The notes under the pieces were generated by a model. That model made no database searches, was not told the origin of the DNA, and saw only the letters and a list, made by a program, of their open reading frames with translations. Positions 9,041-25,928 of a stretch of DNA of 63,156 nt are shown one piece after another (position 1 is the stretch's first letter; every line of letters begins with the position of its first letter). Both the position numbers and the translations under genes were made by a program. This DNA is from Candidatus Obscuribacterales bacterium (GTDB lineage: Bacteria > Cyanobacteriota > Vampirovibrionia > Obscuribacterales > Obscuribacteraceae), in the NCBI GenBank assembly GCA_020050685.1, contig JAGVKG010000053.1:1-63156 (forward strand). The letters run 5' to 3'.

Positions 9041-12000
9041 CTAAAACGATACTTGCATTGCTGTTTCAGAGCCATCAATATCTTCATCATCACAAACGTC
9101 GTTTGTATCGATAATCGCTTCACCTGTTTCCGATTGCGAATCGGAATGGAAGCCCATTGGCACAAGACCAAAGGTGTTAAAAGTGCCACCTTGCAAGTGT
9201 ATCTCATTTGGTGTTGTTGATGGACCGGCGGTGAAATTCATGGCTCCGCCTTGCAGAGTCAATACAGCTTGATTTGCAGTACTCAGATTTATTGATGGAC
9301 TAGTTGTTGTATTTACTGTAATGGCACCTGTTGTTCCAGTCCCGTTGTTGATTTGGACATTTGTACCCAGAGTAGTCGGAGTAGGTGCCGTTCCGGATGG
9401 CTTCTGGGAAGCCGCCTTCAAATTGGCAGGCAAAACCGTCTGCACGTTTGCAATTGAACCTAGGGCTATGCCACCACCCGTGGAGTTTAGCGATTTGGCC
9501 ACAAATGAATTGCCTGAGCCACCATCTAATTTTTGATTTGCACCGATAAGCAAATTGCCGCCATCTACTTCAAACAAGGCAGCATTACCAATTGTCAAAT
9601 TGGCTGAAGCATAGATTGAGGTGTTGGCACCTATGGAATTGATAACCGTAACATTGCCGGTATCCGAGTTAATGGTTACATCACCGTTAGTTGAGGTGAT
9701 TGTGATTGATCCGGAGGACAAAATGTCGCTTGGCTTTACTATGCCGGGGGGCGTCGGTCCCTTCAGTGTGCCTGCCTTAATTCCCGAGCCCAGTCCCAAA
9801 GTAACCGCGGTGCCTTTTACGGTAACATCGCCGGCATTTGATAATAAGATCGCGCCTGTGCCAAGAGTCACGGCTCCCGCTGTCGATGTCAACTTCATAT
9901 CATTTCGGCTCGACATTCCTGCGGTATTGCTCAAGGTAATGCCACCATTTGCGTCTACAGTAAGGAGTCCGCCGGTTGCGACGTTTATGCCGGAAAATAT
10001 CAGAGCACCCGTACCCAAGGTCAAGGTCAACGGTGTCGTAATATTGACTTTGGTCCCGTTAACCGTTGAATTGTTTGCAATGGAAATTGCCGAGCCTGCC
10101 GGTGCTGTTATCGTTATAGTTGTTCCAGTAATATTTCCTAATGCTGCAGTACCCTGGTATGCCGAAGTAATGGAAACGGTGTTTGGCGCACCGACCGGCA
10201 TCACTGATAGCACCGAATTTAGGATGGTGCCACCGGTTATATTCACGCCGGAACTGTTAATTAGTATATTACCGGTGCCTGTTGACGTGCCAATTTGTCC
10301 GGTCGTGCCCATCGTCAGAATCAAATTGCTACCCCCCTTGGGAGTCATTTGAATTGTTGTAGCCAATATTTTGCCCAAATTGGAAACCGAAGCAAATCCG
10401 CTCATGTTCATTGTTGAATTTCCGGCAGCAGACAAAGTTCCCGTGGCACCAACAGTTAAGCCATTACCAAATAGCAAAGTAGTGCCGGCATTAAATGCCC
10501 ATGTTCCATTTATCGTACTGTTTGTCACTCCTGACAGATCAATCGGCAGCGTTCCGTTAACCGTAATTGTGATTTTGTTGGTATTGTCCGTATCGACCGT
10601 GCTCAGGTTAAAAGACGAAATGTCGGAGGGGAAATCATATGAATTGACGGTTATGCGAGAGTTGCCTCCAGTGGGAGGAGTATTGATTGCTTGCCCGTCT
10701 GCATTCAAGCCGATGGTTTGCTTCTGAGGAGGATTGCCGGGATCGCGAGAAATTGTATATAGCGCCATGGCTGTCGCCGGTGTGATTGTGGTGCGCACTC
10801 CGCTGCCATTGTCCGGACCAATGCCCGTTACCGTTCCACCAACGTTTACGTTATACGCTCCACCAAGAATAGTAATTGTTAATTCGAACTGGTTGAATGG
10901 GGAGCCTCCGGCAACTCTGCTTGCGTTTTTGTTATTAGCAGTGGTTCTGCCATTGGTAATGGCGCCGGTGGTACCATTTATGCCGGCATTCTCGCCTACC
11001 GAGAACATACCACCAGGCAACGCCACAACGCTCTTACGTGTTCGTGTGGTATCAAGATCCACAGGCAGGCTCTGGACAGAATAGGTTTTTATTTCAATCT
11101 TTCCGTTGCGTCCGTTGAATGCACCTTTGCCGAATGAAGCATTGATACTGTTTCCGTTACTCTGTCCGGAAACGACGAGACTGCCCGCCTTGATCACCAA
11201 GTTTCCACCATCACCACTGCGTCCACTCTTGCTGTCGCCGCCACTTATGTCGATATATCCTTTAATAGTTGCATTGCCAATGTTGGATCCGGTGGGGACG
11301 GTGGTGCCTGTTTGCAAGTCGAGGCTACCCCCGTTGCCACCATTGGCTGATCCTTGCGTGCTTCCCCCACCGGCTAATATATTTCCACTAACCCTCAAAA
11401 ATGATTTTGGCGCAAGCACTATGGCACCACCTTTGCCGCCGGTGCCCGTTGTCTTGCTTTGTGTGTTGCCGCCTGAGGCATCAAGGTCACCATTGATGGT
11501 CATAAGACCGCCGGAAGTAAGACTTATTTTGCCGGCATTAGCACCATTGGCGGTTCCAGCGGTAGAACCGCCCTTGGAAATAACGCTGCCGCCCAGCTTG
11601 AGAACACCACCTGCGGTGACAGTTACATTGCCGCCACTGACAGCATTAAGGGCAGAAGAAGTGCTGGCATCGTTAGAGCCGGCAGCATTGATTAGACCGT
11701 TAACTGTTACATCGGAATTTACGCCCTGTAGAGTAACATTGCCAGCACCATTGCCGGTGCCTCCTTGCTTTACGCTCGTGTTTATCAGGCCATTTACGGT
11801 GATACTGCTGTCGGTAACCAAGCTGACCGTGCCTCCATTCAGGCCGGCAGAAGAGGCATCAATTGGTCCATTAACCACAAGAGCCGCATTAACACCAGTT
11901 ACCGGCGTTTTTGCCGATACTCGGCCGCCATAGACAATGCCGTTAAAGATCTGCATCGTGGTTGATATTTCCGGTTCTGCTCCGCTAAGTTGCACATTAC

Positions 12001-15000
12001 CGCCGCCGGTTGCCCCCTTGGTGGTAATGCTGCCGACCTGCACACCGGCTTGTCCAATTAAAGTTACTGCACCACCTGGGCCATTTGCCGAACTGGTATC
12101 AATATTTCCCAGGCTGATGGTGCCTTTGTTTACTGTGCCTGTATGTGCCACGACGGTAACCGCGCCCCCCTGTCCGGTGTATATGCCTGGTTTAGGCGCA
12201 GGTGAAGTGGTGCTTGTATTAATTGCCACGTCAGGAAGCGTCACGCTGCCTCCGGATGGAGACGCTCCGGTAACATTGAAAAGCGTGCTTGTATTTCTGG
12301 TCAGATTTTGATCAGGTGGAGTAAACAAAAAACCGGCCATTAAGGTAAGACTGCCGCCACTGCTTGTTGGTGATGAAAGATTGAGAGTAACTCCGGGATC
12401 AGCAAAAATATTGCCGGATGCAATTACTGCCAAGGATTTACCGTTTGAGTTGACCACCATGCTGGAATTGAGCGTAATGTCGCCACTTGGATTGGTGAGA
12501 GTGCCGCAACCGGACCCGAGTTGACAATCGGGACTAACATTTATTGTCACGGGACCAACTAGGGCGTTGGGATTATCCAGCGAGCATGTATTAACGGTAA
12601 ACTGACTTGAAGTAATTTGTGTGTGCTGCGACAGACTCACTGTCCCGCCTACGGCATTCATTACCGTTCCGGTAGCTCCGCCTTGCATAGTGAAAACACC
12701 ATCAATGTTAAGTTGAGGAAAAGCAATTAAGAAGTTACTGGCATTGAAGATAACTCCATTGGTGGCAGTCACAGTGCCAGTGCCCTCGATCAGAGTAGCC
12801 GCACCAGGCGATCCATTGAAAGTAATGGCACCACTTGTGGCGGTCAAAGCTCCGTCATTGATGGTAACGTGTCCGGATGCTAGTGTGATTGCCGTTCCTG
12901 ATAGCATCGAGTTAATAGAAATGCCATCAAGAGAAGTAAGTCGGACTATTCCGCCTGTAGTTGAATTTCCATGAAATTCTACATCTGCTGACGAGGTGCC
13001 TGTTTGTAATTGTAAATTGGCGGCAGTCACAGGACCATTCACCAGCAGATTGCCCATGGAGCCCATAAGCAATGACCCGGTGACAGTGGAAGGACCTAAT
13101 ATCGGTGTTCCGAGGTCGGCAATTGCCGCGTTTGCCGCGACGACAGTTGTCTCCACGCCGCCGGACGACTTGGCGGCAATTGAAGCATTACCAGTTGTGT
13201 TAACGCCGATGCCACCGGCTGCAACCAAAGGCATGGCAAAATTATTCAGTTGAACCTTGTCTTCCGTACCGGCAAACGACGGTACGTAGACCTTGAACCG
13301 CCCATCAACAATGCCCACTGTCGCTAAATTAAGTGAGGCATTGGTTGTGTTTGGCACGGCCAATGTTTGATCGACAGTGCCGGTATTTGCTTGCACTACT
13401 TTGACCGTGGTTGGTGTGGAGACATACAATTCCGTTCCTTGCGGGTTTACCTGCATCGACAAAATATTGTTTGCTGGTCCGGTCGGCAATGTAATTGTAT
13501 TGAGCAGGGCAAGACTCATAGGATCAATTGCAAATACCTTGCTGCTTGTGTTGTCCGATGCGTATAAGACAGAGCCTGACCCATCCATTGTCGCAGAATT
13601 GAAGTTCGTTGCTCCGGCAATCGGAACAGAAGCACCGAGAGTATTGGTTTGAGTTCTGTATACGTTGACGTTATTGCCATGCGTTACATATAAATTCTGA
13701 CCGTTAGGATCGATAGCCAGAGTTCCTGCCGAAGCAATAGGCACCTGGTGAACAACTTGCTTTGTCGTGCCGTCAATTACAAAAAGAACACCGGAATTAG
13801 TATTAGTTATAGCCATAGCATAAACAAAATTGGTTTTTGGATTTGCCACCATGCCGGTCACCGTGCCGCCAAGATCTATAGTTTGAACCACATTGTTGCC
13901 CTCAACTATGAACAAGAAACCCCGGTTATTACCGGGACTATTGCCGGAGACGAACATCTGACCGGACTTTACACTAAATGCGCCATATGTGAGGTTGCTG
14001 CTTTGCCCCACCTGGAAGCTTGATAGTTGTTGACCTGTTTTTGTATCCAATACAGACGCAACAAAGCCACCCAGTACCAAAACTCTTGAATTGTCCTGGT
14101 TCAATGCCGCTCTTGTGAAACTGTTGGTGAATTTATTAGTAACGTTATTGGCTTTGCCGGAAGCAAGAGTTTGCACTACCTGACCGGTAGTCCCGAAAGC
14201 AAACGATACTTTGCCGCTGACTGTTATGTCTTGGTTCTGGATAATTTTTCCAGTATTTGATTGCAATGTCAGATTAGTTGGAAAGGTAACCGGTGTATCA
14301 ACTACTACATCGTTGTTGCCGTGCAAAACCAATGTTTCAGCTTTGAGCGTATTGGTAATCTGCCGCATGACCACGCCGCCACCATTGGCTTTAATGGTTA
14401 AGCTACCGGCAACGGTTATATTTTGTTTGAGCGGCAAATCAAAATTTCCGGATTCTGTTTCCAATATAAGATTGCCAGGTGCATTTATAGGTACGTTAAA
14501 TTGTATACCTTGCTGATTTTGAATATTTAACACCTGTTGTTTTCCAAACAATCGCAGAGTTCCTGATACGTTTGGATTGGCATTGACAATAATGCTTGGG
14601 TCGTTCGGAAACTCTAGGGCCTGTACAGTAGCGTTTACAGCCGTAAGTACGCCATTGAGTGAAATAGGTCCCGAAGGCACCGCCGAAAGTGTAAACGGTC
14701 CTGAGGCAACAGTGCCTGAAGGTACATTGACAGCGACGGTTGATCCGCTATTGGTTGTGAAATTTGCGCCTGCAATTTGCACATCGCCCGTAGCGGTCAC
14801 TGTATTGGCAATGATAGTGGGAGTTGCGAGTGACATTCCGATGATGTTCATGTTATGTCCGACGACATTTTTTGGCAGAAATATTTGGCCGTGGTCATCA
14901 TTGACAAAGTGTCTATAGGCAAGCAGAGTGATATCACCGTTAACCGTTCCTTGAGCCAAAAACTCCGGACGATTTGGGTTGACAATATTTGCAGCCACGT

Positions 15001-16945
15001 TTATGGAACCCTCATGCTCAGCTGAGGTACCGCTAAATGTAACTTGGGTTCCAGTATAGTTAAGGTTTGAAACACCAGCGGCCATAAATATGTTTCCGGC
15101 AGTAGCGGAAGCTGCTGATGTATTAATTATGCCCACATAGCTAATCGACTTTCCCGCTACCAAGGTGACGTTGCCGCCATTGGTGTTCATATCCCCAGGC
15201 ACAAGCTGTCCATTTCCGACTACTAGGATATTACCCTTACTTGTAGTGCCGATAATTGTGCCGACGTTCGCACTTCCCCAAGTATTGGAAGGGATAAACG
15301 AATTGGCTGATGTCTTTGCTCCTGTCGTTGCATTGAAAACAAGTGGCTGTGCATCAGTAGTTGTTGGTTGCGCGTTAAAGACGGAATAATTGCCACCTTG
15401 AGCACCGGTCGACGAAACATTGGGCAACGCCCAACCTGAAGTTGAGACTCCATCCCCTCCGCCAATTATGGTTATATCGCCGCCATGTCCGCCAGCAAAT
15501 GTTGAATTGGCAGTAACGTTGGCTCTTACCCCTCCCTGGAACATGTCGACATTACCCTTTGTTCCAACCTTGTACGCGATGATGAATATGTTGTTAGCAT
15601 TACCCGTCGAGCTGTTGGTGGAAATATCGGTACTAGAAATTTGAATATCGCCGCCAGTAGTCGAAGCACCGCCTACGGAAATGTCGTTACCATTTTGCGT
15701 GATCGTGACGCCAGCTACGATCATAATGTCACCTAGTCCGCCGGAACTTAGAGTACTCGGACCCGGTAGAAGTCCCATCACGTCGCCTTTTGCTGCAATC
15801 AAAATAGGACCAGGTCCCATATTGCCTGTGATTTGCGCATTACCATTGGGATTCAAGAGCACCGGGTCGCCAGATACATCAAAATTTCCCAATACCAAAT
15901 TATCAGATGGTGCCCATGCCACCACATTGCATGCTTTGGCATTCAATGTGCCTTGAAAATTATCAACATTCAAATTGGCCTTACCGCCACCCGAATTCAA
16001 ATTGACAGCTTTTGCCAGCAATTCACCGCGGGCAATAGACATATCGCTAGTACCGGAGTATTGTGCGTCGCGGAAATTTATCGAGCCATTTAAGGCTTGC
16101 ATACTGCCAGACATATTATTGAATTCAAGGTTGTGCGAAGGCAAAGAATTGACGTTCAAATTTCCCGCCAGAGCCGACATCATTCCAGAATTAGTGATGT
16201 GACCAACGTTCGACATCAGATTCAAATTCTGCGCGCCCTGAAGTGTGCCGGCATTTGTAATCGCTCCACCGGCATTTAAATTTAGATTGCCCGAACTTGA
16301 AACTGCGCCGAAATTTGAAATTGAATTCAATGCATTAAGCGTCAAATCCAAATTGCCATTGTTAAGTCCGTAAAATTCCGGCACCATTGTCGAAATCAAG
16401 GCTCCGGAATTATTCACAATGCTATTTGCAGACATTACTGCGTTAGTCACTGCGCTATTGCTTGAATAAGCAAACAAGCTTCCGTTGTTGATCAAAAATC
16501 CAGTCAAATTCAGTGGAGACTCGGCATTTTGCAAAACGGTGACATTTTGCGGCACCACAAGACATTTAAAGCTATTAGATGAAGCGACAAGACTGCTCAA
16601 CTGGAAAGTTCCACCCACTGCTTGTCCAAGTTCATTGAGCATTAGGCTTTGCTGAGTGCCGGAAACAACCTGGGATAGCGCTGCAAACTGCGCCGGAGTA
16701 ATTGATTGTCCCGCCTGTACTGCCATTGGCGCACCACCAACAAGTATTGAGGCCTCCGTGGCACCATTCAGGTGCTCCGGCATGACCGTCACCGAAGTTC
16801 GTCTCGATGACAGATTCATTGATACAGGAGCTGCTGCGCCTGGTGATTCGTTATGTTCCCAGCACCAACCAGGTGGAATTAAATAAGTAAGAAGAAAAAG
16901 GCACGTGACCACCAACCGCAATGTGCGATTCTCATAGCTATTCAT
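9041..16945 (-). CDS. Giant FHA-like beta-helix surface protein with embedded beta-propeller
   Basis: Secreted protein of 2634 residues. The start at 16945 is fixed by AGGAG upstream and by the signal peptide it begins (MNSYENRTLR, hydrophobic core, PPGWCW). The body is almost entirely Gly/Asn/Thr/Ser/Val repeats of the filamentous-haemagglutinin type (GNLNLNAGGAITNAGT, GGNVTVTAGG), predicting a long right-handed beta-helix. At about residues 930-1240 it switches to six or seven YVTN/NHL-like blades (VLDTKTGQQL, VFAIDPMSLA, YVSTPTTVKVV), a beta-propeller. It then returns to beta-helix. The end is acidic and Asp-rich and shows no autotransporter barrel, LPXTG, PEP-CTERM or T9SS tag. No TpsB-type transporter is nearby. 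Probable role: adhesion or surface structure. It converges with the DUF2252 gene. Confidence 0.8.
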   Translation of the reverse strand: MNSYENRTLRLVVTCLFLLTYLIPPGWCWEHNESPGAAAPVSMNLSSRRTSVTVMPEHLNGATEASILVGGAPMAVQAGQSITPAQFAALSQVVSGTQQSLMLNELGQAVGGTFQLSSLVASSNSFKCLVVPQNVTVLQNAESPLNLTGFLINNGSLFAYSSNSAVTNAVMSANSIVNNSGALISTMVPEFYGLNNGNLDLTLNALNSISNFGAVSSSGNLNLNAGGAITNAGTLQGAQNLNLMSNVGHITNSGMMSALAGNLNVNSLPSHNLEFNNMSGSMQALNGSINFRDAQYSGTSDMSIARGELLAKAVNLNSGGGKANLNVDNFQGTLNAKACNVVAWAPSDNLVLGNFDVSGDPVLLNPNGNAQITGNMGPGPILIAAKGDVMGLLPGPSTLSSGGLGDIMIVAGVTITQNGNDISVGGASTTGGDIQISSTDISTNSSTGNANNIFIIAYKVGTKGNVDMFQGGVRANVTANSTFAGGHGGDITIIGGGDGVSTSGWALPNVSSTGAQGGNYSVFNAQPTTTDAQPLVFNATTGAKTSANSFIPSNTWGSANVGTIIGTTSKGNILVVGNGQLVPGDMNTNGGNVTLVAGKSISYVGIINTSAASATAGNIFMAAGVSNLNYTGTQVTFSGTSAEHEGSINVAANIVNPNRPEFLAQGTVNGDITLLAYRHFVNDDHGQIFLPKNVVGHNMNIIGMSLATPTIIANTVTATGDVQIAGANFTTNSGSTVAVNVPSGTVASGPFTLSAVPSGPISLNGVLTAVNATVQALEFPNDPSIIVNANPNVSGTLRLFGKQQVLNIQNQQGIQFNVPINAPGNLILETESGNFDLPLKQNITVAGSLTIKANGGGVVMRQITNTLKAETLVLHGNNDVVVDTPVTFPTNLTLQSNTGKIIQNQDITVSGKVSFAFGTTGQVVQTLASGKANNVTNKFTNSFTRAALNQDNSRVLVLGGFVASVLDTKTGQQLSSFQVGQSSNLTYGAFSVKSGQMFVSGNSPGNNRGFLFIVEGNNVVQTIDLGGTVTGMVANPKTNFVYAMAITNTNSGVLFVIDGTTKQVVHQVPIASAGTLAIDPNGQNLYVTHGNNVNVYRTQTNTLGASVPIAGATNFNSATMDGSGSVLYASDNTSSKVFAIDPMSLALLNTITLPTGPANNILSMQVNPQGTELYVSTPTTVKVVQANTGTVDQTLAVPNTTNASLNLATVGIVDGRFKVYVPSFAGTEDKVQLNNFAMPLVAAGGIGVNTTGNASIAAKSSGGVETTVVAANAAIADLGTPILGPSTVTGSLLMGSMGNLLVNGPVTAANLQLQTGTSSADVEFHGNSTTGGIVRLTSLDGISINSMLSGTAITLASGHVTINDGALTATSGAITFNGSPGAATLIEGTGTVTATNGVIFNASNFLIAFPQLNIDGVFTMQGGATGTVMNAVGGTVSLSQHTQITSSQFTVNTCSLDNPNALVGPVTINVSPDCQLGSGCGTLTNPSGDITLNSSMVVNSNGKSLAVIASGNIFADPGVTLNLSSPTSSGGSLTLMAGFLFTPPDQNLTRNTSTLFNVTGASPSGGSVTLPDVAINTSTTSPAPKPGIYTGQGGAVTVVAHTGTVNKGTISLGNIDTSSANGPGGAVTLIGQAGVQVGSITTKGATGGGNVQLSGAEPEISTTMQIFNGIVYGGRVSAKTPVTGVNAALVVNGPIDASSAGLNGGTVSLVTDSSITVNGLINTSVKQGGTGNGAGNVTLQGVNSDVTVNGLINAAGSNDASTSSALNAVSGGNVTVTAGGVLKLGGSVISKGGSTAGTANGANAGKISLTSGGLMTINGDLDASGGNTQSKTTGTGGKGGAIVLAPKSFLRVSGNILAGGGSTQGSANGGNGGSLDLQTGTTVPTGSNIGNATIKGYIDISGGDSKSGRSGDGGNLVIKAGSLVVSGQSNGNSINASFGKGAFNGRNGKIEIKTYSVQSLPVDLDTTRTRKSVVALPGGMFSVGENAGINGTTGAITNGRTTANNKNASRVAGGSPFNQFELTITILGGAYNVNVGGTVTGIGPDNGSGVRTTITPATAMALYTISRDPGNPPQKQTIGLNADGQAINTPPTGGNSRITVNSYDFPSDISSFNLSTVDTDNTNKITITVNGTLPIDLSGVTNSTINGTWAFNAGTTLLFGNGLTVGATGTLSAAGNSTMNMSGFASVSNLGKILATTIQMTPKGGSNLILTMGTTGQIGTSTGTGNILINSSGVNITGGTILNSVLSVMPVGAPNTVSITSAYQGTAALGNITGTTITITAPAGSAISIANNSTVNGTKVNITTPLTLTLGTGALIFSGINVATGGLLTVDANGGITLSNTAGMSSRNDMKLTSTAGAVTLGTGAILLSNAGDVTVKGTAVTLGLGSGIKAGTLKGPTPPGIVKPSDILSSGSITITSTNGDVTINSDTGNVTVINSIGANTSIYASANLTIGNAALFEVDGGNLLIGANQKLDGGSGNSFVAKSLNSTGGGIALGSIANVQTVLPANLKAASQKPSGTAPTPTTLGTNVQINNGTGTTGAITVNTTTSPSINLSTANQAVLTLQGGAMNFTAGPSTTPNEIHLQGGTFNTFGLVPMGFHSDSQSETGEAIIDTNDVCDDEDIDGSETAMQVSF

Positions 16946-20748: not shown

Positions 20749-20804
20749 TCGCAGTTTTCAAGCTGATAAACTGTCTTTAAGCTTTGTCAATTAGGAGGTC
20801 AGGG

Positions 20805-22274
20805 ATGGGCGCTAACTCAGATGCCAAGCAAGCCGACATTGGACTCATTGGTCTTGGTGTAATGGGCGAAAATCTCGCCTTAAATATAGAACGCAACGGA
20901 TACACGATTGCTGTCTTCAACCGCCACACGGATAAAGTTGATGCTTTTGTTGCCGACCGCGGCAAAGGTAAAAATGTTATTGGCACAAAAGATGAAAAAA
21001 CTTTTGTCGAATCGTTGAAGCGTCCGCGCAAAATTATTCTGCTTGTCAAAGCTGGCGACGCCGTCGATTCCACCATTGCCAAGATCAAACCGTATTTGGA
21101 AAAAGGCGACATCATAATTGATGGTGGCAATTCGCATTTCCAAGATACGCGCAAGCGCGAGAAGGCGCTGGCGGCAGATGGACTTTACTTTATCGGCTCC
21201 GGTGTGTCTGGCGGAGAAGAAGGGGCGCTTTGGGGACCCTCACTCATGCCGGGCGGAGACAAGGGTGCTTACGAACAGATTCAAGAAATTTGGGAAAAGA
21301 TTGCCGCTAAAGTGGCAAACGATCCTTGCGTCACGTATCTCGGTCCGGATGGGGCAGGCCACTATGTGAAGATGGTGCACAACGGTATTGAATACGGCGA
21401 AATGCAATTAATCGCTGAGTCTTATGATCTGATGAGACGCGGACTTGGATTACCGGTGAGTGAAATCGCTGAAATTTTTGATCGCTGGAATCAAGGCAAA
21501 CTCAATTCATTCTTAATTGAAATTACGGCAGGCATTTTGACTGTCGTGGATAAAGATACGAATAAACCGCTTGTCGATCTTATCGTCGATGAAGCTGGAC
21601 AGAAGGGTACAGGAAAGTGGACGACGGAAATTGCCGCCGAACTTGGTGTGCCTGTGCCGACGATTGAAGCGGCTTGGGCAGCCCGATTGCTTTCGGCTTT
21701 GAAGCCACAAAGAATGGATGCAGCAAGAGTGCTTACTGGTCCGCAAGCGAACAAACTGACTGTCGACAAGAATCAATTCATTCAACAATTGGAAGATGCA
21801 CTTTATGCAGCACGCATTTGTTCCTATGCACAAGGCATGGCTTTGATTGTTGCCGGATCAAATGAATACAATTGGAATATTGATTTGGTTGCCTGCGCAC
21901 GCATCTGGCGTGGTGGCTGTATTATTCGCGCCAAACTGCTGGAAGAAATCATGCAAGCTTATTTGCGCAAGAAAGATATCGTCAATTTATTATTGGATCC
22001 TAAGTTGGGTGCAGCCACTGTTTCTGCACAGGCATCTTGGCGCACTGTAGTTACTCAAGCAATCCAAATTGGTATTCCGATACCGGCATATTCTGCCAGC
22101 CTTGCTTACTTCGACAGTTATCGCACACCAACTTTGCCGCAAAATCTCACCCAAGCTCAGAGAGATTACTTTGGTGCACATACTTACCTCAGAATCGATC
22201 ACGCCGATCAAGGTTTGATTCACACCGATTGGCCAAGCTTGATCAAAGTCAAAGCCGGAACGCCGAAATCTTAG
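20805..22274 (+). CDS. gnd: 6-phosphogluconate dehydrogenase, decarboxylating
   Basis: Converts 6-phosphogluconate and NADP+ to ribulose 5-phosphate, CO2 and NADPH, the last oxidative step of the pentose phosphate pathway. It has 489 residues, normal for the long (GndA) class. A Rossmann motif (GLGVMGENLALNIERNGY) lies near the start. The substrate signature GGEEGALWGPSLMPGG follows, then HYVKMVHNGIEYGEMQ with the catalytic Lys near 188. ATG 20805 is chosen because AGGAGG lies six bases upstream; a TTG at 20784 contains that site and is rejected. It is the first gene of gnd-zwf-opcA-pgl; zwf follows after 67 bases. Confidence 0.95.
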   Translation: MGANSDAKQADIGLIGLGVMGENLALNIERNGYTIAVFNRHTDKVDAFVADRGKGKNVIGTKDEKTFVESLKRPRKIILLVKAGDAVDSTIAKIKPYLEKGDIIIDGGNSHFQDTRKREKALAADGLYFIGSGVSGGEEGALWGPSLMPGGDKGAYEQIQEIWEKIAAKVANDPCVTYLGPDGAGHYVKMVHNGIEYGEMQLIAESYDLMRRGLGLPVSEIAEIFDRWNQGKLNSFLIEITAGILTVVDKDTNKPLVDLIVDEAGQKGTGKWTTEIAAELGVPVPTIEAAWAARLLSALKPQRMDAARVLTGPQANKLTVDKNQFIQQLEDALYAARICSYAQGMALIVAGSNEYNWNIDLVACARIWRGGCIIRAKLLEEIMQAYLRKKDIVNLLLDPKLGAATVSAQASWRTVVTQAIQIGIPIPAYSASLAYFDSYRTPTLPQNLTQAQRDYFGAHTYLRIDHADQGLIHTDWPSLIKVKAGTPKS

Positions 22275-22341
22275 ATCAGGCGGCCTGGTAAATGTTGAAA
22301 GCAATTAATAGGAAATGAAAGCGTAAATAAGTGGAGGCAAA

Positions 22342-23916
22342 ATGTCGGACGCACAAGCAGTACTGAACCCACTGGCCCAGGGCCTGGATTTGGAAAGGCG
22401 CGTCGAACCATTCTCCATGGTTATTTTGGGTGCGCACGGCGATTTAACTAAGCGCAAACTTTTGCCTGCCCTTTATGCCTTATATATTGATGGGCATTTG
22501 CCTATGGATTTTTGCATTGTCGGCATGTCGCGCACGCAAATGAGCGATATGGAATTCCGCCAAGCCATGAAAGATTCACTCAAGCAATTTGCTCCGGAAA
22601 TTGCTTTTGATGAAAATACTTGGGAGCGATTTGCATCCGGTCTTTATTATCTTGCCAGCAACTTCACCGAACCGGGCAGCTTTGATCCGTTGGCAAACTT
22701 GCTTGACGATCTGGGCAAGAAGCATGGTTGTTTAGGCAAGCATGTGTTTTACCTTTCTACGCCGCCTTCTTTATACGTGCCGATTGTGCAAGGGCTGGCA
22801 AGCTCAGGTCTGGCACATAAAGACGATGCAGAAAAGACACCTTGGCCACGCATAGTTGTTGAAAAGCCATTTGGTAGAGACTTAGCTTCGGCTAAAGAAT
22901 TGAACAAACAAATTCACGAAGTGTTTGACGAACGCCAAGTCTTTCGTATCGATCACTATTTAGGCAAAGAGACAGTGCAAAACATCATGGTCTTGCGTTT
23001 TGCTAACGGCATATTTGAGCCACTATGGAACCGCGACCACATTGACCATGTGCAAATTACCAATGCTGAAACTTTAGGCGTTGAAGGTCGTGGTGCTTAC
23101 TACGAAGAAGCTGGCGCATTGCGCGATATGGTGCAAAACCATATGATGCAGCTGTTGTCCCTCGTGGCCATGGAACCACCAATTTCCTTGGGCGCAGAAG
23201 ACATTCGTGACGAGCGCTTCAAAGTTGTTAAGTCCATTCGTCCATTTGATCTGGATAAATTAGATGCAAGCGCCGTGCGCGGGCAATACGGCCCGGGTTG
23301 GGTAGTTGGACAAAAGGTTGTCGGCTATCGGGAAGAAACACGCGTCAATCCCGAGTCAGCCACCGAAACATATGTTGCCCTAAAGCTCTTCATTGACAAT
23401 TGGCGCTGGGCGGATGTTCCTTTTTATGTACGTTCCGGTAAGCGCTTGTCTAAATCCGTTACGGAAATTGCCATTCACTTCCGTCCGGCACCACACGGAC
23501 TTTTCCTCAAAGCACTTTGCCCCGGTCCGGAAAAGGAAATGGAAACGGTCGGACCAAACGTGCTGGTTTTGCAAATTCAACCGGATGAAGGTATATCGCT
23601 CAAGTTTGCCACCAAACTGCCCGGCACAACTACACAATTGCGCTGGCTTTCCATGGACTTTCGTTATGGTACTTCCTTTGGTGTCAGAAGTCCTAGCGCT
23701 TACGAACGGTTGATTTTGGATTGCTTAATCGGTGATGGTTCACTGTTTGCTCGCACCGATGCTGTGGAATCTTCCTGGGCGCTTTTGACTCCGGTTTTGG
23801 AAAAATGGAAACAAGAAACAACACCTGCATTTCCAAATTACCCAGCTGGCTCTTGGGGTCCAACCGCCGCGGACGTTTTAATCGCATCCACCAAACATAG
23901 TTGGCGCAGACTCTAA
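22342..23916 (+). CDS. zwf: Glucose-6-phosphate 1-dehydrogenase
   Basis: Oxidises glucose 6-phosphate to 6-phosphogluconolactone with NADP+. It has 524 residues, the usual size. The N-terminal nucleotide-binding motif is GAHGDLTKRKLLPALY (near 31). The active-site signature RIDHYLGKE is at about 200-208, with the conserved Lys and His. The C-terminal lid follows. The start has GTGGAGG seven bases ahead. Cyanobacterial-type G6PDH enzymes require OpcA for full activity, and opcA follows after 15 bases, so the pair is very probably co-translated and functional. The downstream lactonase and upstream gnd complete the branch. Confidence 0.95.
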   Translation: MSDAQAVLNPLAQGLDLERRVEPFSMVILGAHGDLTKRKLLPALYALYIDGHLPMDFCIVGMSRTQMSDMEFRQAMKDSLKQFAPEIAFDENTWERFASGLYYLASNFTEPGSFDPLANLLDDLGKKHGCLGKHVFYLSTPPSLYVPIVQGLASSGLAHKDDAEKTPWPRIVVEKPFGRDLASAKELNKQIHEVFDERQVFRIDHYLGKETVQNIMVLRFANGIFEPLWNRDHIDHVQITNAETLGVEGRGAYYEEAGALRDMVQNHMMQLLSLVAMEPPISLGAEDIRDERFKVVKSIRPFDLDKLDASAVRGQYGPGWVVGQKVVGYREETRVNPESATETYVALKLFIDNWRWADVPFYVRSGKRLSKSVTEIAIHFRPAPHGLFLKALCPGPEKEMETVGPNVLVLQIQPDEGISLKFATKLPGTTTQLRWLSMDFRYGTSFGVRSPSAYERLILDCLIGDGSLFARTDAVESSWALLTPVLEKWKQETTPAFPNYPAGSWGPTAADVLIASTKHSWRRL

Positions 23917-23934
23917 AGCTTTGAGGACTTCGTG

Positions 23935-25107
23935 ATGGCAAGCACAACTGATACCCTTTCGGCTGAAGAATTTCTTTCCGGCAAAATCACAAGCGTTGAC
24001 GTGCCAGGCATAGAAAGAGAATTGCGCGCGCTATGGGCAAGCGCCCGCGAAGCTCATCCCATACCACAAAATGCTAGTCCGGATGTTGTGCGCGCTTGCA
24101 CTTTGAATTTCATTTTCTTTTCCCGCGAAAAGGGTGCCGAACTTTCTTGTGGAAATGTGCTGGATGAAATTGCTGCCATGCATCCTTGCCGAGCACTGCT
24201 AGCAATTTCACTGGGTGGAGAAGAACCAAAGATTGAAGCTTGGGTCTCAGCACGCTGCCACATGGTACCAGGATCAACGACTGGTCCAACCAAACAGATT
24301 TGCTGCGAGCAAATAACCGTGCGTTCGGAAGGTCCGGGAATTCACAAGCTCTCAAGTGCGGTAATACCACTTTTACTGCCCGACCTGCCTACCTTTATAT
24401 ATTGGCGCTGCCACGAGCTTGACCAATTGCAAATTGATTCTTTCAAATCGGCTTGCGACAAAATCATCATCGACTCGCAAAGCTTGTCTGCCAATTTAAG
24501 TTCATTTGCAGAAGTAGGCGAGTTAATTAAGACAAACTCAAAGCACCTGGTTGTTTCTGATTTAAATTGGCGGCGAATTCACGCCTGGCGTAGAATGATT
24601 GCTTTGCAATTTTCTCAAACAGTCCTCAATTCCTCAGGACCTCAGCAGATTGCGAAAATTAAAATTCAGCATTATGGCGGAATGTCGCAAGCAATTCTTT
24701 TTCTGGCTTGGATGTCCAGCTTATTGGGTTGGCATGTGACAAGCGTGCGCAAGGACGAACAGTCTGGTCCGGACACAAATCTGCATTTGAAATTCAATGA
24801 TCAAATTGAAGTTGAGATCATTGCCAGCTTGCAAGGCTATGTTCCGGCAGGAAATATCAGCGCAGTTGAAATCACTATGCAAAATGGCTATACGCTTTCT
24901 GCTTTATATGAACCGGAATCAGAGTCACCATCCTTGGTGGCTGAACTGAAAAACAACGGACAGCACTTACATAGTACGGTCACTCAAGGACCGTGTTTGA
25001 GTGAAACCAACCTGGTTGGTCTGGAACTGGAAACACTAGTGTGCGATCAAATTTATGGCAAAGCCATTGCCGCAGCTTGCCAAATCGTTAGTCAGATTAC
25101 GAAATAG
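23935..25107 (+). CDS. opcA: Glucose-6-phosphate dehydrogenase assembly/activator protein OpcA
   Basis: OpcA promotes oligomerisation and redox-dependent activation of G6PDH in cyanobacteria and has a paralogue in actinobacteria. This protein has 390 residues. It shows the family's conserved middle (CEQITVRSEGPG, then AVIPLLLPDLPTFIYWR) and later WMSSLLGW. The start is ATG 23935; a GTG directly before it is in frame, and AGGA precedes both. The protein is soluble and carries several cysteines (for example AACQ near the end and CEQ in the middle), relevant because cyanobacterial OpcA is a thioredoxin target. It sits between zwf and pgl. Its presence is one of the better hints of a cyanobacteria-related host. 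Confidence 0.9.
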   Translation: MASTTDTLSAEEFLSGKITSVDVPGIERELRALWASAREAHPIPQNASPDVVRACTLNFIFFSREKGAELSCGNVLDEIAAMHPCRALLAISLGGEEPKIEAWVSARCHMVPGSTTGPTKQICCEQITVRSEGPGIHKLSSAVIPLLLPDLPTFIYWRCHELDQLQIDSFKSACDKIIIDSQSLSANLSSFAEVGELIKTNSKHLVVSDLNWRRIHAWRRMIALQFSQTVLNSSGPQQIAKIKIQHYGGMSQAILFLAWMSSLLGWHVTSVRKDEQSGPDTNLHLKFNDQIEVEIIASLQGYVPAGNISAVEITMQNGYTLSALYEPESESPSLVAELKNNGQHLHSTVTQGPCLSETNLVGLELETLVCDQIYGKAIAAACQIVSQITK

Positions 25108-25133
25108 CCAGAGTATAAACAAAGAGAACGCCA

Positions 25134-25928
25134 ATGCAAACTTTTCAATTAGCCGGTGCCACCATAAACATTTGCCAGAATAAAGAAAAGCTTGCTGAAA
25201 AGTTAGCAACTCATTTTGTCGATTTGGCAAAAGCGTCAATTGAAGCCGATGGACGATTCACAGTTGCCTTGTCTGGTGGCTCGACACCAAAAGCACTTTA
25301 TAGTCTTCTGGCGACAGATGAATATGCTAAGCAAATTGCTTGGGATAAAGTCTTTTTCTTTTGGGGAGACGAACGTTGTGTTCCCCACGACAGCCCCGAT
25401 AGCAACTACCGCATGGTAAATGAAGCATTGCTTACCAAAGTACCAATTCCCAAAGCAAATACATTTACCACAGAAGGGCAAGAGAAAAATCCGGAAGAAG
25501 CAGCTAAGCAATACGAGCAGAAGCTAAAAGAATTTTTCCAGCTCGGTGCAAACAAATATCCGGCATTTGATTTAGTCTTGCTCGGTCTAGGTCCGGAAGG
25601 ACACACCGCATCCATGTTCCCTGGGTCTGTTGCCCTTACTGAGCCACAAAGAATATTCATGACCGTTTATGTGGAAAAGCTCAGCGCCTTTCGACTTACC
25701 TTAACCCTCAATGCCATAAATGCCGCAAAAAACGTTTGCTTCATGGTGGCAGGCGAGGACAAGGCAGATATTTTATCGACAATCATTTCCCAGACGGCTC
25801 GGACATCAGAGAACAAACTACCAGCTGCCTGCATTCAGCCAAGTGCAGGACACCTTGAGTGGTTTATCGATCGAGCCGCCAGTATGAAACTAGGTTTGGA
25901 TATTTTACACACGACAATCGAGGCGTGA
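25134..25928 (+). CDS. pgl: 6-phosphogluconolactonase
   Basis: Hydrolyses 6-phosphogluconolactone to 6-phosphogluconate, joining the Zwf and Gnd steps. It has 264 residues of the DevB/SOL type (NagB-like fold). Visible motifs are LSGGSTPKALY (phosphate-binding, near 45), FFWGDERCVP with DSNYRM, and LGLGPEGHTASMFPG around 150-165, which contains the catalytic His. It starts 26 bases after opcA. Only one base separates its stop from the start of the Hpt gene, so the phosphorelay protein is translated from the same message. Confidence 0.93.
   Translation: MQTFQLAGATINICQNKEKLAEKLATHFVDLAKASIEADGRFTVALSGGSTPKALYSLLATDEYAKQIAWDKVFFFWGDERCVPHDSPDSNYRMVNEALLTKVPIPKANTFTTEGQEKNPEEAAKQYEQKLKEFFQLGANKYPAFDLVLLGLGPEGHTASMFPGSVALTEPQRIFMTVYVEKLSAFRLTLTLNAINAAKNVCFMVAGEDKADILSTIISQTARTSENKLPAACIQPSAGHLEWFIDRAASMKLGLDILHTTIEA

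Follow-up and report, generated by a model that had tools for sequence, protein, structure and literature searches.

A YVTN-type beta-propeller embedded in a giant FHA-like protein, and its recurrence in the order Obscuribacterales

Long beta-helix exoproteins are known mainly together with a dedicated TpsB transporter, and beta-propellers are wheel-shaped domains that often bind other molecules. The TpsA exoproteins (FHA, EtpA, and HxuA) have a long right-handed beta-helix, and the helix of HxuA bears functional insertions, the longest of which has 67 residues (512-578; PMC4873976). The insert in the 2634-residue protein described here, which is encoded by a Candidatus Obscuribacterales bacterium (assembly GCA_020050685.1), is by comparison an entire propeller, some 315 residues long. 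Its repeat type and fold are the same as those of the YVTN propeller 1l0q and of YncE, but neither of these lies within a beta-helix shaft, and the embedded propeller differs from them also by its degenerate blades. Free-standing YVTN proteins of Obscuribacterales (frames of about 480-610 codons) are matched by the same propeller profile as the embedded one, but these frames are of ordinary length, with no room for an N-terminal domain and a beta-helix body. Among open-licence papers, no account of the family was found.

The gene lies in a window (the whole stretch of DNA that was analysed) of 63,156 nucleotides, where an uninterrupted minus-strand frame of 2634 codons starts with the ATG at 16945 and ends with the stop at 9041-9043. 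Its features, and what each assignment is based on, are as follows.

9041..16945, minus strand: whole gene, 2634 aa (ATG at 16945, frame without stops)
16856..16945, minus strand: signal-peptide-like start, residues 1-30 (translation read by eye)
15764..16831, minus strand: conserved family N-terminal domain, residues 39-394 (family profile, AlphaFold2, and VIA)
14195..15763, minus strand: beta-helix body, part 1, residues 395-917 (AlphaFold2 models and paralogue alignment)
13232..14179, minus strand: YVTN-type beta-propeller of seven degenerate repeats, residues 923-1238 (profile, model, and inspection)
9191..13231, minus strand: repeat body, part 2, residues 1239-2585, putative beta-helix (paralogue alignment; strands weakly modelled directly behind the propeller)
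9044..9190, minus strand: C-terminal end, with the conserved tail GEAIIDTNDVCDDEDIDGSETAMQVSF within residues 2586-2634 (tail profile)

Gly, Asn, Ser, and Thr are abundant in the protein, which, read by eye, begins with a basic n-region (NRTLR) followed by the hydrophobic LVVTCLFLLTYLIPP within residues 1-30, a start similar to those of its paralogues. Against Pfam, the full-length protein gave no match at E 1, and its N-terminal 315 residues alone matched DUF5649, a repeat family, weakly (9e-4, under the curated cut-off). The forward-strand open reading frames inside the gene were set aside as mechanical. Elsewhere in the window, gnd, zwf, an opcA-like gene, and pgl stand in a row at 20784-25928, which by inspection is a Cyanobacteria-like pentose phosphate cluster.

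Our preferred reading, which we consider probable, is that of a very long exported beta-helix protein belonging to a lineage-specific Obscuribacterales family, in which the embedded propeller serves as a swappable binding module on a surface rod.

The embedded propeller

An earlier note on this DNA had described an FHA-like body broken by a propeller at about residues 930-1240, and this description has stood. Seven repeats of about 42 residues can be laid out by inspection at residues 923-1238, and a propeller profile made from 14 propellers of relatives, with the 2634-residue protein left out, matched the latter at 95.5 bits (E 4e-29). Only one of 200 shuffled copies came within the reporting threshold (1.6 bits), and propeller-free paralogues reached at most 0.8 bits. 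The nearest solved relative of the profile, by sequence, is 1l0q (E 8.5e-154). Among curated models, the NCBIfam family YncE, whose propeller is 7-bladed, gave 9.5e-13 over residues 1031-1208, far below its equivalog cut-off, and the middle region alone gave a weak SMP-30-like propeller match in Pfam (3.5e-4, under the curated cut-off). The YVTN repeat model TIGR02276 reached 20.4 bits in the 2634-residue protein, under the cut-off of 27.85 that the relatives pass, and for this reason we call the blades degenerate. A single plasmid match to the propeller was seen, and it was marginal.

The structural evidence comes from an AlphaFold2 run that covered residues 780-1420 and used an alignment of 14 relatives. 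The mean pLDDT was 62 and the pTM 0.47 overall, a value at which the placement of helix against propeller in the model is unreliable; the propeller core (about residues 1020-1149) reached about 84-91. The top Foldseek match of this model was again 1l0q (E 5.1e-12), the YVTN propeller from a surface-layer protein of an archaeon, and with VIA the model residues from about 974 to 1242 aligned to NHL, designed six-bladed, and YncE propellers at Z 22-26 (maximum 25.6). The prediction over the region 900-1260, which the earlier note had proposed as a check of its reading, thus gave a propeller and no continuous beta-helix. The blades number seven by sequence, and the first of them is not resolved in the model, so that the count is six or seven. 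The propeller embedded in the FHA-like body is real and above chance, and profile and model together place it about one third along the length of the rod.

Shaft, N-terminal domain, and the search for an exporter

AlphaFold2 was also run on residues 30-680 with 15 paralogues, and here the model was nearly all beta with a helical-repeat pattern (mean pLDDT 85, pTM 0.84). In the model of residues 780-1420, strand repeats were seen at residues 799-917 (pLDDT about 60-82) and just past the propeller (pLDDT about 50-70). Residues 1448-2634 align with a comparable stretch of a paralogue of 10,226 codons and with further paralogues, and judging from this likeness the beta-helix would continue beyond residue 1320.

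Compared with VIA, the N-terminal model is nearest to the secretion domain of EtpA (Z 17.5 over 245 residues, 3.9 A) and to HxuA (Z 17.1), in both cases N-terminus to N-terminus; FHA followed at Z 17.0 in a shifted register, and unrelated beta-helices (polygalacturonases) gave Z 13.5. The best Foldseek E for this model was 0.13, and a profile of 17 N-terminal domains matched no PDB sequence at E 1. Because of these two results we propose for the N-terminal domain a predicted TPS-like fold only, and do not claim membership of the TPS family. The long right-handed beta-helix predicted here, and perhaps the fold of the N-terminal domain, which is nearest to EtpA and HxuA, would be what the protein has in common with the TpsA exoproteins. 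The Obscuribacterales family differs from them in three respects. The Pfam TPS family was matched neither by the whole protein (E 1) nor by its first 315 residues (E 10). A conserved NPNG motif, the role of which in TPS domains has been described (PMC5422565), was not found, NPNG being present in only 2 of the 17 N-terminal domains and late in both (stretch positions 365 and 383). The third respect is the TpsB partner.

The earlier note had seen no barrel and no TpsB partner nearby, and had suggested a genome search for an Omp85 or TpsB transporter, which found neither in the source genome and bore out its observation: the ShlB (TpsB) profile had no match there. Among 53 genomes of the order, the same profile gave three weak matches (E 2e-4 to 5e-4), all of them overlapping a BamA-like gene, and no match in any of the 22 with a completeness of 90% or more and a contamination of 5% or less. 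Across the phylum it was positive in 160 of 194 genomes, other families of the same class among them, which indicates that the search method works. On present sequences the order appears to have no convincing TpsB, while a very diverged one is conceivable. Omp85/BamA was detected in 45 of the 53 genomes, as a single gene in nearly all of them, and judging from the presence of this gene Obscuribacterales are diderm, consistent with the published view of Melainabacteria (PMC4040986). Omp85/BamA was not found in the source assembly, which is rated 98.7% complete, and this is most likely due to a gap or to divergence; a single-membrane envelope, which the missing gene might suggest, was set aside in view of the 45 genomes that have it.

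These results bear directly on the reading of the protein as an ordinary TpsA, with a TpsB that is too diverged to detect or lies in an assembly gap and a propeller that is merely an accessory domain. We regard this as rather unlikely. The likeness of the N-terminal domain to the TPS domains of EtpA and HxuA speaks for it, and a source assembly without even the Omp85/BamA of most of the order tells us that gaps or divergence exist; but a profile that finds TpsB across most of the phylum met only BamA-like sequence in the order and nothing in its 22 best genomes, and neither the Pfam match nor the conserved NPNG expected of a TPS domain is there.

The exporter that was not found, together with the YncE propeller as top NCBIfam family match, would also agree with a repeat protein that remains in the envelope or on it, structural or periplasmic in kind, and whose propeller, like that of YncE, serves for binding or as a scaffold within the periplasm and is no surface head. 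At the usual coil rise, some 2300 residues of beta-helix would make a rod tens of nanometres long, and such a rod, with paralogues of up to 14,495 codons, is too long to span the periplasm end-on. We regard this alternative as improbable.

Recurrence of the architecture in Obscuribacterales

The N-terminal domain is present in 38 of the 53 Obscuribacterales genomes. The source genome has 39 matches to it, and its 28 distinct listed frames have a combined length of 102,474 codons (7.3% of 4.2 Mb), an approximate share given that frame lengths were taken from stop to stop and that some frames are ended by contig ends. The longest frame of the source genome (G000:C34:129690; L120, L121, L122), stop-free over 14,495 codons, has the same N-terminal domain and the VDTGD tail described below, and other giant frames of the family have 10,226 and 8,837 codons. 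Two adjoining giant frames (L113 and L114; 6195 and 3939 codons) have nearly identical ends, and a recent duplication is likely. No conserved neighbour gene was found beside the paralogues, and a link to CHAT peptidases, considered for a CHAT gene some 5 kb away from one of the paralogues, was discarded, since the genome has only two CHAT genes and the family no conserved neighbour.

The YVTN model also matches large frames of other genera and, in the source genome, three more, one on contig C49 (1691 codons) and two on C53 (1808 and 6972 codons); most of the frames retrieved bear the N-terminal domain. The domain and a propeller occur together in three other frames of the source genome and in frames of seven other genomes. 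In all, a propeller was detected in 14 of 82 frames with the N-terminal domain, or in 14 of 72, from several genera, after removal of duplicate stretches, a count which includes the 6972-codon frame, retrieved in two pieces, and in which incomplete members may hide more propellers. Between the N-terminal domain and the propeller lie only about 210 residues in some frames and about 1000 or more in others, and one frame of another genus (L068; 714-17255, minus strand, 5514 codons) has three complete propellers, at residues 789-1089, 1405-1702, and 2056-2353. The earlier note had called a propeller within an adhesin shaft unusual. Helix plus propeller has turned out to be no oddity of a single protein: this modular arrangement is seen repeatedly in a family of giant proteins that spans the order.

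On a quick tree of the N-terminal domains, the propeller trait required 11 changes, compared with 13 when the labels were shuffled, and well-supported branches force at least five of the 11. The propellers have therefore been gained or lost repeatedly, and, as they stand at different positions, they act like modules that can be exchanged along a shared shaft. Such frequent shifts between presence and absence, with blades under the YVTN cut-off where those of the relatives are far above it, might also be expected of a decayed passenger, that is, a functionless insertion in a rapidly recombining repeat gene, but the intact frame, the seven discernible repeats, and the confident model core leave this reading little probability.

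The propellers of five frames from different genera (L071, L072, L074, L075, and L076) share, in one of their blades, a conserved CPC motif (GPCPCGTK or a close variant), which may have a metal or disulfide role.

Proposed function and the C-terminus

In the preferred reading of an exported rod with a binding module, the protein would probably exit the cytoplasm via Sec by its N-terminal signal peptide, and the TPS-like N-terminal domain is predicted to start and cap the folding of the long right-handed beta-helix. The architecture suggests a surface location, and the propeller would most likely be an extracellular binding module held off from the cell. The idea of a "binding head" is plausible, and since the blades are degenerate, this particular propeller may have lost its ligand. 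The likeliest function, as far as can be judged from such an architecture, would be to adhere, or to capture a ligand some way out from the cell.

Pfam recognised no outer-membrane barrel family in the last 319 residues, and the chain ends in an acidic tail. The last ~25 residues (GEAIIDTNDVCDDEDIDGSETAMQVSF) match the tail of about 20 paralogues of the source genome, which have VDTGD followed by acidic residues. The tail profile gave 19 matches at E <1e-8, all in large frames, and those checked are family members. The tail appears to be family-specific, and it corresponds to no recognised sorting domain or anchor. It was considered as a general sorting tag, which is not supported, the strong matches being confined to large family-like frames. 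The earlier statement that the protein has no sorting tag needs some qualification: no recognised sorting domain is present, but the conserved tail is a candidate docking or processing element. Another ending, a domain of FecR-like appearance by eye that is followed by KxAAxL...GPY, is found in family members of other genera and in five long frames of the source genome.

A wider proposal, which we put forward only tentatively, is that Obscuribacterales make giant TPS-like shafts with swappable heads that are exported without TpsB via an undescribed exporter, and that the C-terminal tails (VDTGD-acidic, or FecR-like with KxAAxL..GPY) aid export or attachment. If confirmed, this would point to an unknown route across the diderm envelope and to adhesins of modular build in a branch of Cyanobacteriota that has hardly been studied. 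It would concern the whole order, in which a large share of some genomes is given to such proteins, repeatedly decorated with propellers, and TpsB was not found.

The FecR-like C-terminal domain has no Pfam or NCBIfam match, and its name comes from inspection alone. Ending in KxAAxL...GPY, it is found order-wide in the last 260 residues of family frames (L067, L069, L072, L113, L115, L133, and others).
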